Shown in pieces: positions 59,226-64,000 of a stretch of DNA of 64,000 bases; within the stretch, counting starts at the first letter, position 1; each line of letters begins with the position of its first letter. The notes under the pieces were generated by a model. It ran no database searches and was not told the origin of the DNA. It worked only from the letters and a program-made list of their open reading frames with translations. The position numbers and the translations under genes were made by a program. Source of the stretch: Streptomyces violaceoruber. GTDB lineage: Bacteria; Actinomycetota; Actinomycetes; Streptomycetales; Streptomycetaceae. The stretch lies in contig NZ_CP137734.1 in NCBI RefSeq assembly GCF_033406955.1, positions 6,882,001 to 6,946,000 of the forward strand. Direction: 5' to 3'.

Positions 59226-59524
59226 CCAGGCCCGATCCACCGCCGTCGCCCCCCCCGGCGCACCACCGCACACCCCCGCGCGCAACGAACACCCGCGCTG
59301 CCGCGCCGAACGCAACGATCGTGCCCGAACGCGCAAGGTTGCTGCATTACCGGGGCACCGCCCCGCTCGTAGTGTTCTGCGCTGTACGTGGCGTGGCGGG
59401 GACCCCGCTCGGTGGGTCCCCGTTCTGCACGAGCGCGCCCGCCGGTCCCCGCCGCTCCCCAGACCCGCCGGGAGCCGTCCGCCCACCCCGGCGGCCCGAC
59501 CGGCAGCGACAAAGGAGTCAACGC
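59226..59524 (+). promoter_or_regulatory. Upstream region of the permease-Lrp operon with CGCAA motif array
   Basis: 299 bases without a gene. Three motifs CGCAACGAAC (59281), CGCAACGATC (59311) and CGCAAGGTTGC (59332) lie 30 and 21 bases apart. A hairpin GGGGACCC/GGGTCCCC (59398-59405/59414-59421) follows, then a C-rich stretch and AAAGGAG before the permease GTG. The motif trio recurs before the nitrilase gene. Confidence 0.6.
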
Positions 59525-61015
59525 GTGCTCGACCAAGGCGCACCCCCGCCCCACGACGCATCGGCCGTCCCACCGTCCCCGGGCCTGGCCGCGCGCCTCA
59601 TGCGCCGCAAGCCGGTGGAACGCCTGGTCGCCGAGGGCGGCCAGGGCGAGGGCGGCAGCCTCCGCCGCTCCCTCGGCCTCTGGCAGCTCACGATGATCAG
59701 CATCGGAGCCACCCTCGGCACCGGCATCTTCGTCGTCCTCGGCGAGGCCGTCCCCAAGGCCGGCCCGGCCGTCACGCTGTCCTTCGTCATCGCGGGCCTC
59801 ACCGCGCTCTTCTCGGCCCTGTCCTACGCCGAGCTGGCCGGCACCATCCCGGTCGCCGGATCCTCGTACTCGTACGCCTACGCCACCATGGGCGAACTGG
59901 TCGCCTGGATCTGCGGCTGGTGCCTGGTCCTGGAGTACGGCGTGTCCGTGGCCGCCGTCGCCGTCGGCTGGGGCGAGTACCTGAACGAGCTGCTCGACGG
60001 CACCATCGGCGTCACCCTCCCCGCGGCCCTGTCGGCACCGCCCGGCGACGGCGGCATCTTCAACCTGCCCGCGCTGATCGTCGTGCTCCTCGCCATGACG
60101 TTCCTGCTCGGCGGCGCCCGTGAGTCCGCCCGCGCCAACACGATCATGGTCGTCGTCAAGATCGCGGCCCTGGTGCTCTTCTGCGCGATCGGCGTGCAGG
60201 GCTTCCGCCCCGGCAACTACGAGCACTTCATGCCGCTCGGCATGGCCGGGGTCAGCGCGGCAGGTGCGACGCTCTTCTTCTCCTACATCGGCTTCGACGC
60301 CGCCTCCACCGCGGGCGAGGAGGCCAAGAACGCCCAGCGCGACCTGCCCCGCGCGATCATGCTGTCCCTGGTCATCGTCACGGTGCTGTACGTCCTGGTC
60401 GCGGCCGTCGCCGTCGGCGCCAAGCCCTGGCGGACCTTCACCGACTCCGAGGCGTCCCTCGCGCAGATCATGACCGACGTCACCGGGCAGACCTTCTGGG
60501 GCACCCTGCTGGCCTTCTGCGCGGTCGTCGCCATCGCCAGCGTCGTACTGACCGTCCTCTACGGCCAGACCCGCGTCCTGTTCGCCATGTCCCGCGACGG
60601 ACTGGTGCCCAAGGTCTTCTCCAAGGTCCACCCGAAGACCGGCGCGCCCCGCGCCAACACGCTGATCGTCTCCCTGTTCTGCGGCGTCCTCGCCGCCGCC
60701 GTCCCGCTCGGCCAGCTCGCCGACGCCACCAGCATCGGCACCCTCTTCGCCTTCGCGCTCGTCAACGTCGCCGTCGTGGTGCTGCGCCGGACCCGTCCCG
60801 AGATGCGCCGCACCTTCCGGGTGCCGTTGTCGCCGGTCCTGCCCGCGCTGGGCTTCGGCCTCTGCGTCTGGATGATGGGGAGCCTGTCCACCGTCACCTG
60901 GGTGGTCTTCGGTGTCTGGATGGCCGTCGGGCTCGTGTTCTACTTCGTGTACGGCCACCGCCGCTCCCGACTCGCCACACCGGTCCCGTCCGAGGCCCGG
61001 ACGCACCAGAAGTGA
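59525..61015 (+). CDS. APC-superfamily amino acid/amine permease
   Basis: 496 residues with about twelve hydrophobic segments starting near residue 55. The APC signature ISIGATLGTGIFVVLGEAVPKAGPAV and the IGFDAASTAGEEAKNAQRDLPRAI loop place it in the cationic/basic amino acid transporter branch. The GTG 59525 has AAAGGAG seven bases upstream. An Lrp-type regulator gene starts 15 bases after the stop, so substrate-responsive control is likely. The exact substrate cannot be read from sequence. Confidence 0.93.
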   Translation: MLDQGAPPPHDASAVPPSPGLAARLMRRKPVERLVAEGGQGEGGSLRRSLGLWQLTMISIGATLGTGIFVVLGEAVPKAGPAVTLSFVIAGLTALFSALSYAELAGTIPVAGSSYSYAYATMGELVAWICGWCLVLEYGVSVAAVAVGWGEYLNELLDGTIGVTLPAALSAPPGDGGIFNLPALIVVLLAMTFLLGGARESARANTIMVVVKIAALVLFCAIGVQGFRPGNYEHFMPLGMAGVSAAGATLFFSYIGFDAASTAGEEAKNAQRDLPRAIMLSLVIVTVLYVLVAAVAVGAKPWRTFTDSEASLAQIMTDVTGQTFWGTLLAFCAVVAIASVVLTVLYGQTRVLFAMSRDGLVPKVFSKVHPKTGAPRANTLIVSLFCGVLAAAVPLGQLADATSIGTLFAFALVNVAVVVLRRTRPEMRRTFRVPLSPVLPALGFGLCVWMMGSLSTVTWVVFGVWMAVGLVFYFVYGHRRSRLATPVPSEARTHQK

Positions 61016-61030
61016 AGTGAACGACCCGCA

Positions 61031-61483
61031 GTGCTGAACGATCTCGACGAACGCATCGTGCACGCCCTCGCCGAGGACGCCCGCCGCTCCTACGCGGACA
61101 TCGGGCAGTCGGTCGGCCTGTCCGCACCCGCCGTCAAACGGCGCGTGGACCGGCTGCGCGCCACCGGCGCCATCACCGGCTTCACCGTCCGCGTCGACCC
61201 CGCCGCGCTCGGCTGGGAGACCGAGGGGTTCGTCGAGATCTTCTGCCGCCGCAACACCTCGCCGGAGACCATCCAGCGGGGCCTGGAGCGCTACCAGGAG
61301 GTCGTGGCCGCGTCCACCGTCACCGGGGACGCCGACGCGGTCGCCCAGGTCTTCGCCTCCGACATGCGGCACTTCGAGCGGGTCCTGGAGCGGATCGCCG
61401 GGGAGCCCTTCGTGGAGCGCACCAAGTCCGTGCTGGTGCTCTCGCCGCTGCTGCGGCGCTTCTCGTCGGGCTCGCCCACGTAA
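61031..61483 (+). CDS. Lrp/AsnC-family transcriptional regulator
   Basis: 150 residues. The N-terminal helix-turn-helix (LDERIVHALAEDARRSYADIGQSVGLSAPAVKRRVDRLRATGAI) is followed by the RAM ligand-binding domain (GWETEGFVEIFCRRNTSPETI, VTGDADAVAQVFASDMRHFERVL). It follows the permease by 15 bases and probably responds to the amino acid or amine that the permease carries. Confidence 0.94.
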   Translation: MLNDLDERIVHALAEDARRSYADIGQSVGLSAPAVKRRVDRLRATGAITGFTVRVDPAALGWETEGFVEIFCRRNTSPETIQRGLERYQEVVAASTVTGDADAVAQVFASDMRHFERVLERIAGEPFVERTKSVLVLSPLLRRFSSGSPT

Positions 61484-61524
61484 TCCCATGGGCAGGACAC
61501 CGGCCGGCGTCTAGCATCGGTGCC

Positions 61525-61542
61525 ATGAGCCGACGACATTGA
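61525..61542 (+). CDS. Possible five-codon leader peptide MSRRH upstream of the MFS gene
   Basis: ATG AGC CGA CGA CAT TGA lies eight bases after a TAGCAT -10 (61512-61517; weak -35 TGGGCA at 61489-61494, 17-base spacer), so it would sit at the very 5' end of the mRNA as a leaderless mini-ORF. An imperfect stem follows (CGGAC...GTCCG, 61586-61608) between it and the transporter start. It uses two CGA codons, rare here. The role is inferred: ribosome-mediated control of the downstream gene. Confidence 0.4.
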   Translation: MSRRH

Positions 61543-61630
61543 TCCCCCCGCGCCACCCGTAGCGCCTCCTCCCGAGGGCCGCCCCGGACGCCGTACTCCG
61601 GTGTCCGATCCGCCCCCTCGGGAAGGCCTC

Positions 61631-62872
61631 ATGACCGTCTCACCTCTGCCCGAGCGTGCCGCCACCGCGCCCGCCGGAACCCGCCGGCTCGTGCGCACGC
61701 TGTACGCCTCCGCGTTCTGCGACGAGTTCGTCCTGCTCTACCCGGTGTACGCCCTGCTGTTCAGCGACACCGGCCTGTCCGTCTGGCAGACGGCCTCGCT
61801 GTTCGGCCTGTGGTCGCTGACCGGCATCCTGCTCGAAGTGCCCTCCGGCGCCTGGGCCGACGCCGTCTCCCGGCGGCTGCTGCTGATCCTCGGCCCGCTG
61901 CTCACCGCCGCCGGCTTCGCACTGTGGGTGCTCGCGCCCTCCTACGGCGCCTTCGCGCTCGGCTTCGTGCTGTGGGGCGCCGGCGGCGCGCTCGGCTCGG
62001 GCGCGCTGGAGGCGCTGGTCTACGACGAACTCGAGCGGGCCGGCGCGGCCGGCCACTACGCCCGCGTCATGGGCCGGGCCCGGGCGATCGGCATCGCCGC
62101 GACCATGTCCGCCATGGGCCTGGCCGGCCCGGTGTTCGCCCTGGGCGGCTACGACGCGGTGGGCGCCGCGAGCGTGCTCGCCTGTCTGGCGGCGGCGGCC
62201 GTGGCCACCCGGTTCCCCGAGCACCGGACACCCTCCGGCGGCGGCGAACGCTGGTCCGCGACCCTGCGCGCGGGACTCGCCGACGCCCGCGCCGACCGGT
62301 CCGTGCGCGGTGCGCTGCTCCTCGTGCCGGCCGTGACCGCGGTGTGGGGCGCGCTCGACGAGTACACGCCGCTGCTGGCGCACGACACCGGCGTGGCGGC
62401 CGAGACCGTGCCCTGGCTGCTGCTGGTGATCTGGGCCGGAGCCACGGCCGGCAGCCTGCTGGCCGGTGCGGCGGAGCGCCTGACCGCCAACGGGTTCGCC
62501 GCGCTGCTCACCGGTTCCGCGCTCGCCCTGGCCGTGGGCGGCCTGGCCGGCACACCGGCCGCCCTGGTCCTGGTGGCCCTCGCCTTCGGCGGCTTCCAGC
62601 TGGCGACCGTGCTGGCCGACGCCCGCCTCCAGCAGCGCATCGACGACACCGGGCGGGCCACCCTGACCTCGGTCGCGGGCCTCGGCACCGAGCTGGGCAA
62701 CCTCGCCACCTACGGCGCCTACGCGGCGGCGGCCACGGCATGGGGCCACGGCACCGCCTTCGCGCTCTCCGCGCTGCCCTACGTCCTGACGGCGCTGCTG
62801 CTGGCCGGCGCCGCCCGGACTACAGCCGCGGCTGCCAGGGCACGACGTCGAAGTCGCCGGTCCCCTTCCTGA
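61631..62872 (+). CDS. MFS transporter
   Basis: 413 residues with about twelve hydrophobic segments in two halves and a basic C-terminal tail (ARARRRSRRSPS). The motif GILLEVPSGAWADAVSRRLLLILGPLL is the MFS motif A region between helices 2 and 3, and FCDEFVLLYPVYALLFSDTGLS is the first helix. This branch usually exports drugs or metabolites. ATG 61631 has GGAAGG upstream. Its last 53 bases overlap the end of the opposite gene. Confidence 0.9.
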   Translation: MTVSPLPERAATAPAGTRRLVRTLYASAFCDEFVLLYPVYALLFSDTGLSVWQTASLFGLWSLTGILLEVPSGAWADAVSRRLLLILGPLLTAAGFALWVLAPSYGAFALGFVLWGAGGALGSGALEALVYDELERAGAAGHYARVMGRARAIGIAATMSAMGLAGPVFALGGYDAVGAASVLACLAAAAVATRFPEHRTPSGGGERWSATLRAGLADARADRSVRGALLLVPAVTAVWGALDEYTPLLAHDTGVAAETVPWLLLVIWAGATAGSLLAGAAERLTANGFAALLTGSALALAVGGLAGTPAALVLVALAFGGFQLATVLADARLQQRIDDTGRATLTSVAGLGTELGNLATYGAYAAAATAWGHGTAFALSALPYVLTALLLAGAARTTAAAARARRRSRRSPS

Positions 62873-63191
62873 CCTTCTCGAAGGGCGCCGACCCCACGCA
62901 CCGGGGCGGCTCCCCGCCCTCCGCGGGGCTGCCCGCCGCCGCCCAGCTGTTGCCGAGCCGGTCGTGGCGGCCCACGGTGGCCTCGGCCGCCAGAGGGGCG
63001 TCGAAGGTGAAGGTGACGTCGTCCCCCGCCGACCGGTACGGCTTGGCGGTGCCGGTCTGGGCGGCGGCCTCCCTCGGGGCGGGCCGTCGTGCGGTCTCCC
63101 GTCGGGGCCGGCGGCGACGGCCGCGCCCGTGGTGGCGGGGGTGAGCAGCAGGGCGGCGCAGAGCGCGGCGACCGTTGGGGCGGCGTCTCAT
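62820..63191 (-). CDS. Small secreted protein with apparent compensating frameshifts near its N-terminus
   Basis: As read, the gene encodes 123 residues: an Arg-rich N-terminus, then QTGTAKPYRSAGDDVTFTFD...VGRHDRLGNSW, a short beta-rich domain ending DFDVVPWQPRL. Codon use over the first 40 codons is poor (A/T in many third positions). The next frame over the same bases has normal codon use and reads as a signal peptide, TVAALCAALLLTPATTGAAVAA. Removing one C at the CCCC run near 63177-63180 and adding one near 63075 would join signal peptide and domain in one frame. Sequencing error or real mutation cannot be told apart here. Confidence 0.6.
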   Translation of the reverse strand: MRRRPNGRRALRRPAAHPRHHGRGRRRRPRRETARRPAPREAAAQTGTAKPYRSAGDDVTFTFDAPLAAEATVGRHDRLGNSWAAAGSPAEGGEPPRCVGSAPFEKVRKGTGDFDVVPWQPRL

Positions 63192-63501
63192 GGCGGTCGT
63201 CCCCCCTGGACCGAAGCCGGTGAACCGAACGGTCACCACGGTCCCGGCGCCGCGCCCGCGCCCCATCGCGCCCGGGACGGGAGCCGCCTGCGCCGCGCGG
63301 CGGGGAGGGCCGCCCCGGTCTGATCCCCGAGGACGAGTACCGCACCCGCCGGAGGGTGCGCAACGAATCGCCGTGGGGTGCCCCGGGCACGCAACGATCC
63401 GCTCACCGGCGCGCAACAGGTCCGTCTTGTCCGGCCGAGTCCGCCGACCGTACCGTCTATCTGGCCCCCTGAACCCCCCTCGTGACCGGTGAGGAACACG
63501 C
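63192..63501 (+). promoter_or_regulatory. Upstream region of the nitrilase gene with CGCAA motif array
   Basis: 310 bases without a convincing gene. Motifs CGCAACGAAT (63359), CGCAACGATC (63390) and CGCAACAGG (63412) lie 31 and 22 bases apart, nearly the spacing seen upstream of the permease. A TTGTCC (63427) with TACCGT 18 bases on is a possible promoter. GAGGA stands six bases before the ATG. Confidence 0.6.
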
Positions 63502-64000
63502 ATGCGCACCGCCCTGCTCCAGAGCTCCGGCCGCCCCGGCTCCACCGCCGAGAACCTCGAGGTCCTCGACGAGGCCGCGGGCCGCGCCGCAGCCGCGGGA
63601 GCCGCGCTGCTCGTCACCTCCGAGCTGTTCCTGACCGGATACGCCATCGGAGACGCCGTCGGCGTCCTCGCCGAGCCCGCCGACGGCGACGCGGCCGACG
63701 CCGTCGCGGAGATCGCCGGGCGCCACGGCCTGGCCGTCGCGTACGGCTATCCCGAGCGGGACGGGGAGCGCGTCTTCAACTCGGTCCAGCTCATCGCCGC
63801 GGACGGCACCCGGCTCGCGGGCTACCGCAAGACCCACCTCTTCGGCTGCTTCGAGCGCGACCACTTCACCCCCGGCGAGCAGCCCGTCGTCCAGGCCGAG
63901 CTGAACGGCCTCACCGTGGGCCTGATGATCTGCTACGACGTCGAGTTCCCGGAGAACGTCCGCGCCCACGCCCTGGCCGGCACCGACCTGCTGCTCGTCC
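63502..64000 (+). CDS. Nitrilase-superfamily carbon-nitrogen hydrolase, 3' end outside window
   Basis: The first 166 residues are visible, beginning MRTALLQSSGRPGSTAENLEVL. The catalytic triad of the superfamily is complete: Glu41 (TSELFLTGY), Lys110 (YRKTHLFG) and Cys144 (MICYDVEFPE). These enzymes hydrolyse amides or ureido groups; in actinobacteria close relatives lie beside amine oxidases in amine and amino-acid breakdown. The shared upstream motifs link it to the permease-Lrp operon. The gene runs off the right edge. Confidence 0.92.
   Translation, partial: MRTALLQSSGRPGSTAENLEVLDEAAGRAAAAGAALLVTSELFLTGYAIGDAVGVLAEPADGDAADAVAEIAGRHGLAVAYGYPERDGERVFNSVQLIAADGTRLAGYRKTHLFGCFERDHFTPGEQPVVQAELNGLTVGLMICYDVEFPENVRAHALAGTDLLLV

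Follow-up and report, generated by a model that had tools for sequence, protein, structure and literature searches.

Two matching three-site arrays suggest a small Lrp/AsnC regulon for basic amino acid uptake and breakdown in Streptomyces

A stretch of 64,000 nucleotides (nt) from Streptomyces violaceoruber (the window, G000:C1:6882001-6946000 of its own genome) raises the question of why one and the same array of three CGCAA-type sites should stand before two separate transcription units, the first encoding an amino acid permease and an Lrp/AsnC-family regulator (lrp), the second a nitrilase-family amidase and a flavin enzyme, here called davA and davB. The protein encoded at 61031 is called DavR for convenience. 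The original prediction held that this regulator reads both arrays and so joins uptake and breakdown in one small regulon. The proposal is supported by comparative evidence, namely the two arrays, the co-occurrence of the genes, loci that have lost the permease, and a paralogous regulator, and we put the probability that the arrays are the operators of one small DavR regulon for basic amino acid uptake and breakdown at roughly 0.8.

As shown in Table 1, each array consists of three sites (R1 to R3), and all six predicted motifs were found at their positions on the + strand. In the window sequence, the steps between sites are 30 and 21 nt in the permease array and 31 and 22 nt in the davA array, and the earlier argument that such agreement in order, sequence and spacing is unlikely by chance is borne out by controls in random windows and in the own genome. 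The pattern CGCAACGAWY has four matches in the window, all of them within the two arrays, where 0.46 would be expected, and a scan for phased CGCAA-like triples returned exactly these two in 64 kb and 0 in 40 Markov-random windows. In the own genome (8.63 Mb, single contig), the double motif occurs at two places, both of which are these promoters, with 0 matches for the reversed-pattern control. Similarly, a 70-position sequence profile built from 36 arrays gave the two arrays 57.0 and 53.6 bits, the next best place reaching 14 bits (E 0.36); the triple is therefore confined to these two promoters and not scattered through the genome, and the same scan of the own genome gave no further strong array that would indicate a larger regulon. 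Chance similarity was rejected on the window counts, the random windows, the genome profile and the reversed controls, and shared ancestry of the whole promoters was also rejected, since spacers and leaders differ and sites and distances agree. The triple array is thus confirmed as real and far beyond chance.

The strict double motif is found in 77 of 199 genomes of the genus (reversed control, 0/199). Matches to the regulator were obtained in 195 of these genomes and matches to davB in 191; in G028, G120, G121 and G186 the regulator match is only a paralogue of about 55% identity, and in G073 davB is a fragment interrupted by the contig end. After inspection, DavR and DavB are both present in 191 genomes and both absent from 7, two of which are 78–82% complete, and DavB occurs without DavR in G028, where the davB contig of 3217 bp is too short to reveal the regulator. 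Among the 129 genomes listed for both genes, at least 122 carry them on one contig, and in 121 of these they share a strand and lie no more than 14 kb apart. Every second one of these 121 linked genomes (59), together with the own genome, supplied 60 loci for closer comparison, in which the site cores are invariant and the spacers variable. All 46 loci scored for the permease carry the array upstream of that gene, 45 of them with spacing 30/21 and the remaining one with 31/21; of the 58 scored for davA, 57 carry it, each with spacing 31/22. The related genomes thus bear out the pattern seen in the window; L146, in which the permease start lies outside the stretch, was left out of the permease count, and L131 and L136, which gave no davA match, were left out of the davA count. 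In a set of 80 named loci that overlaps with, and is not independent of, the genus sample, 61 could be scored for the permease array, and 60 of these have it (of the rest, 16 count as absent and 3 lie at a contig edge); for davA, all 65 loci scored have the array and 15 count as absent. At the level of the family, the profile matches at E 0.01 in 67 of 121 genomes and in 12 of 17 genera. Weak extra hits also appear in these 121 genomes (E about 0.0002–0.01); of the four opened, L279 and L280 are the array of the paralogue, and L278 and L281 have neither regulator nor target gene beside them. A full array outside the family was rejected, as the gap between permease and davA in family f17 has CGCAA-like pairs and no clean triple at the same promoter distance.

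Table 1. Sites, predicted promoter elements and genes of the two proposed transcription units; locus coordinates are given for parts beyond the window.
Feature	Position	Strand	Details
Permease array R1	59281..59295	+	Begins CGCAACGAAC; GCAA core invariant in 46/46 loci
Permease array R2	59311..59325	+	CGCAACGATCGTGCC, starting CGCAACGATC; relatives often show the inverted repeat CGCA-N7-TGCG
Permease array R3	59332..59346	+	CGCAAGGTTGCTGCA, starting CGCAAGG; immediately upstream of the promoter
Predicted -10, permease-lrp promoter	59370..59375	+	TAGTGT; no TTG-type -35 at the usual place
APC-family amino acid permease	59525..61015	+	TIGR00909; AA_permease_C domain
Lrp/AsnC-family regulator (DavR), proposed reader	61031..61483	+	Orthologue of S. 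scabies SCAB_Lrp2
davA array R1	63359..63373	+	CGCAACGAATCGCCG, motif CGCAACGAAT; present in 57/58 loci
davA array R2	63390..63404	+	Begins CGCAACGATC
davA array R3	63412..63426	+	Begins CGCAACAGG
Predicted -35, davA promoter	63427..63432	+	TTGTCC; TTG 14 nt from R3 in 57/57 loci
Predicted -10, davA promoter	63451..63456	+	TACCGT; TAnnnT 38 nt from R3 in 57/57 loci
davA-like amidase (carbon-nitrogen hydrolase, nitrilase family)	63502..64000, beyond window end to L003:6290	+	
davB-like flavin monooxygenase/oxidase	L003:6355-8052, outside window		About 64 bp behind davA

Which protein, then, reads the arrays? Comparison of the loci indicates that DavR is very probably the binder of both. Both parts of an Lrp/AsnC protein are present in it, an AsnC-type helix-turn-helix (HTH; PF13404, 57.9 bits, cut-off 27) and the AsnC_trans_reg ligand domain (PF01037, 52.1 bits, cut-off 25), and relatives are found in the PDB. 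In 13 of the 60 loci (L094, L107, L110, L120 and others), a deletion between guaB1 and lrp has removed the permease gene, of which some, including L094, retain a 3' remnant. In these 13 loci, the permease is gone together with its array, DavR is intact at 93–98% identity and the davA array is kept, so DavR must act on something besides the permease. In G012 (L179, L180, L181), megabases separate permease-lrp, davA and davB from one another; both arrays are retained there, and none was found at the separated davB. This arrangement is as expected for action in trans if the assembly is right, rearrangement and assembly error both being possible.

The nearest paralogue of DavR, 54% identical to it in the own genome and found in 104 of the 199 genus genomes, has a similar operator. 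The spacing of its array is 31/21 in 34 of 36 loci examined, and its promoters have a TTG at 14 nt in 36/36 and a -10 at 37–38 nt in 34/36, all promoter distances being measured from the G of R3. Behind this array, in the loci read, lies an operon that encodes a dimethylargininase and an ornithine aminotransferase, each above its NCBIfam cut-off, and the array probably marks a second small regulon, for arginine/ornithine breakdown. Paralogue loci with their own triple array, of CGCAG or CGCAA sites, are L290, L381-L409, L163-L166, L276, L279 and L280. The start of the helix and base 5 of the site vary together. DavR has GLSAPAVKRR at the helix start in all 167 rows scored, and base 5 is A at all three sites in 46/46 permease and 57/57 davA arrays. 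In 31 paralogues with S(A/S)T at the helix start, base 5 of R2 is G in 30, that of R1 is G in 20, T in 6 and C in 5, and that of R3 is G in 20, A in 9 and C in 2; R2 of these SAT-type paralogues also ends in CTGCG in 25/31, mirroring CGCAG. The five paralogues that keep SAP have A in 5/5, 4/5 and 4/5 over the three sites, and in L276, likewise a SAP paralogue, each of the three sites reads CGCAA. The SAT paralogues form a single clade (support 99/98), so that the helix and base change is to be counted as one coupled event, not many.

Several observations weigh against a DavR regulon of this kind. No array stands before lrp in the 13 of 60 Streptomyces loci without an upstream permease, and autoregulation through the array is therefore not general. 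The davA array was not found at L151 among the 58 davA promoters scored, nor the permease array at L344 among the 61 named permease promoters scored; most davA sites carry the left half of the palindrome only, and the helix/base coupling rests on one inferred event. An agmatinase-family ureohydrolase (L259:4338-5285) adjoins davB in another actinobacterial family, a hint of arginine as the substrate there. Further points come from SCAB_Lrp2 (SCAB_75421) of S. scabies, which is the DavR orthologue: its 18-mer OP1 has an exact match in G580, lying 24 bp before a gene 93% identical to the window lrp. It has been reported, in the accessible part of PMC11609053, that SCAB_Lrp2 is a protein of 150 amino acids that binds DNA upstream of its own gene in vitro, that the site is a different sequence, the 18-bp OP1, in a probe consisting of the DNA just upstream of lrp, that tryptophan alone among the tested amino acids altered binding, which is a misfit with lysine, and that the protein is a repressor of txtR. 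The position of OP1, at the permease gene's 3' end, differs from that of the arrays described here, and its reported target and effector are txtR and tryptophan. OP1 was rejected as a conserved site: in none of the 60 loci does the 160 bp upstream of lrp contain a match with fewer than 4 mismatches, and random windows do equally well. The accessible part of the same paper mentions neither the array nor davAB, and "permease" and "lysine" have 0 occurrences in its main text.

The promoters give an indication of the direction of control. A TAnnnT -10 at 37–38 nt from R3 is shared by all 57 davA promoters and by 45 of the 46 permease promoters. The TTG -35 at 14 nt, invariant at davA (57/57), occurs in 0 of 46 permease promoters, where the consensus is TTAC. 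With the start assumed about 7 nt past the -10, R3 would be centred near -44, R2 near -65 and R1 near -96. Multiple helically phased sites are thus found at the target promoters (30/21 and 31/22, with 31/21 for the paralogue), and the inverted repeat CGCA-N7-TGCG is clear in permease R2 and in R1 and R2 of SAT-type paralogues, the davA sites being mostly one-sided. In the proposed mechanism, DavR would bind the three sites, most likely as dimers, on nearly one face of the helix, the steps being about three and about two turns, and the bound array would end directly at the -35 region of the permease-lrp and davA-davB promoters. When the amino acid effector is plentiful, DavR would then switch on the permease, itself and a two-step oxidative breakdown. 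Activation of both promoters is favoured, and we consider it probable, because the sites end against the -35, the permease -35 is weak and the steps are near whole helical turns; the regulon first proposed is refined to this extent, the array being placed exactly upstream of conserved -35 and -10 elements. The same binder could act with the opposite sign, DavR being a repressor (or R3 blocking RNA polymerase at the -35) that the amino acid releases. Lrp/AsnC proteins are known as activators and as repressors, and the reported action of SCAB_Lrp2 on txtR is a case of the latter. However, in every promoter class the whole array is upstream of the -35, and neither the -10 nor the start is covered by a site, and the permease promoter is without a TTG -35, as an activated promoter would be; repression is therefore regarded as unlikely, if well worth keeping in mind.

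The davA-davB unit looks like a catabolic route, in which a basic amino acid (lysine or other) would be oxidatively decarboxylated to an amide and the amide then hydrolysed. The original prediction described the gene behind the second array as a nitrilase for amide hydrolysis; this nitrilase-family gene proves to be the first of a pair with a lysine-monooxygenase homologue, so that hydrolysis would be the second step in a route that begins with oxidative decarboxylation. The davA-like product is a carbon-nitrogen hydrolase in one unit with davB (PF00795, 107.5 bits on the in-window portion), and no NCBIfam equivalog cut-off was reached by it. The best solved relative of DavB is the L-lysine oxidase/monooxygenase 3we0 from Pseudomonas sp. 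AIU 813 (E 9e-237), with the tryptophan 2-monooxygenase 4iv9 (E 6e-60) far behind. According to the accessible part of PMC5832979, which names the residue set, Asp238 binds the side-chain amine in the model lysine enzyme and position 254 sets the balance between oxidase and monooxygenase. DavB keeps Asp238 and Trp235 of the basic side-chain pocket, with the substitutions Cys254 to Ala, Gln258 to His and Ala515 to Gly, and both kept residues are present in 133 of 133 homologues that cover these positions (of 169 distinct hits). It is because of this homology to the lysine enzyme, including the acidic residue for the side-chain amine, and of the kept Asp238 and Trp235 that the nitrilase and the flavin enzyme are read as davA-davB. 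DavB would convert the basic L-amino acid, most likely lysine and possibly arginine or ornithine, to the amide, and DavA would hydrolyse the amide to the acid. In L131 and L136, davB is present and there is no recognisable davA at E 1e-20, and the permease arrays there have a changed R2. As for the neighbouring genes, a major facilitator superfamily (MFS) gene comes after the regulator gene, and between it and the davA array (62820-63193, minus strand) lies a short secreted-protein-like frame, apparently frameshifted near its start, which could be a pseudogene.

Lysine or another basic amino acid is, on balance, the likelier effector and substrate. Arginine itself, from which DavB and DavA would yield 4-guanidinobutyrate, is a less likely choice as the substrate. 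It is favoured by the ureohydrolase beside davB in the other family and by the paralogue, whose gene adjoins the arginine/ornithine operon. In addition, an arginine 2-monooxygenase has reportedly been described from Streptomyces griseus. A davB orthologue is presumably also present in S. lividans, which qualifies a published statement that speaks against arginine. The accessible part of PMC5082578 states that the S. lividans genome is without arginine monooxygenase; furthermore, the accessible part of PMC5832979 gives a preference for lysine in the characterised homologue, with 6% relative activity on arginine.

It is a good deal more doubtful that the system senses and degrades tryptophan, by an indole-3-acetamide route, in place of a basic amino acid. 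Tryptophan is the only effector reported for the orthologue SCAB_Lrp2 (PMC11609053, accessible part), DavB is distantly related to tryptophan 2-monooxygenase, and the pocket change Ala515 to Gly follows the aromatic enzymes. Against this, the lysine enzyme is by far the nearer relative of DavB, and the tryptophan enzyme has Val and Phe in place of the kept Asp238 and Trp235; a role of DavB as tryptophan monooxygenase is thus disfavoured by its pocket residues. Least probable of all is a reading of the arrays by another regulator, such as some other Lrp protein or a nitrogen-status protein of the GlnR type, with lrp a mere neighbour: DavR-array binding is argued from comparison, and 13 Lrp/AsnC-type matches reach E 1e-8 or better in the own genome, but DavR was lost with davB in 7 genomes and kept where the permease and its array are gone, 10 other Lrp-type loci fetched from the own genome (the nearest paralogue, with its CGCAG form, aside) are without the full CGCAA triple, two of them reaching 27/30 only with CGCAG allowed and two reaching 25–26, and GlnR boxes are not known to resemble CGCAA, which counts against GlnR as the reader.

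Taking DavR as the reader, the DavR and paralogue systems can be put together in a wider proposal, to which we give an even chance. Two paralogous Lrp regulators would have a common rigid three-dimer operator, each driving a catabolic operon for basic amino acids, and would be insulated from each other by the coupled change from SAP to S(A/S)T and from CGCAA to CGCAG; the tryptophan-responsive OP1 of SCAB_Lrp2 would then be a secondary site, and the real regulon would be permease-lrp plus davAB. In the literature, the operon of the paralogue is most closely paralleled by the gene cluster around the M. tuberculosis regulator Rv2324, which we take to be of the Lrp/AsnC family. In the accessible part of PMC4569260, this regulator gene stands beside the arginine-induced rocDE-Rv2323c cluster and so adjoins an ornithine aminotransferase and a dimethylargininase-type gene, like the ~55% paralogue here. 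The local "feast/famine" Lrp/AsnC regulators in general have the HTH_AsnC and ligand domains, linked target operons and helically phased sites in common with DavR; unlike them, the present system has a rigid three-site geometry common to two paralogues, in which a change of one helix residue goes with a change of one site base. The enzyme pair is of the same type as the lysine 2-monooxygenase/5-aminovaleramidase pathway DavB-DavA of Pseudomonas (L-AAO/MOG, AIU 813), with the side-chain-binding Asp kept; it differs in the three substitutions given above and in its linkage to an Lrp gene and an array, and is known here from sequence. Literature searches found no paper describing the array or the regulon, most subscription papers lying outside their reach. 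As far as these searches show, the regulator gene was already known, and the proposed regulon and operator were not.

The genes behind the second array suggest a davAB-type oxidative route for lysine (or arginine) in Streptomyces. The proposed regulon would give a physiological regulon, an operator and a probable pathway to a regulator that is present in nearly all sampled Streptomyces and whose sole published role found concerns a single species. The fixed geometry of array and promoter, together with the pair of paralogues, would also offer a test bed for studying transcriptional control by phased Lrp dimers and the avoidance of crosstalk between paralogous regulators.

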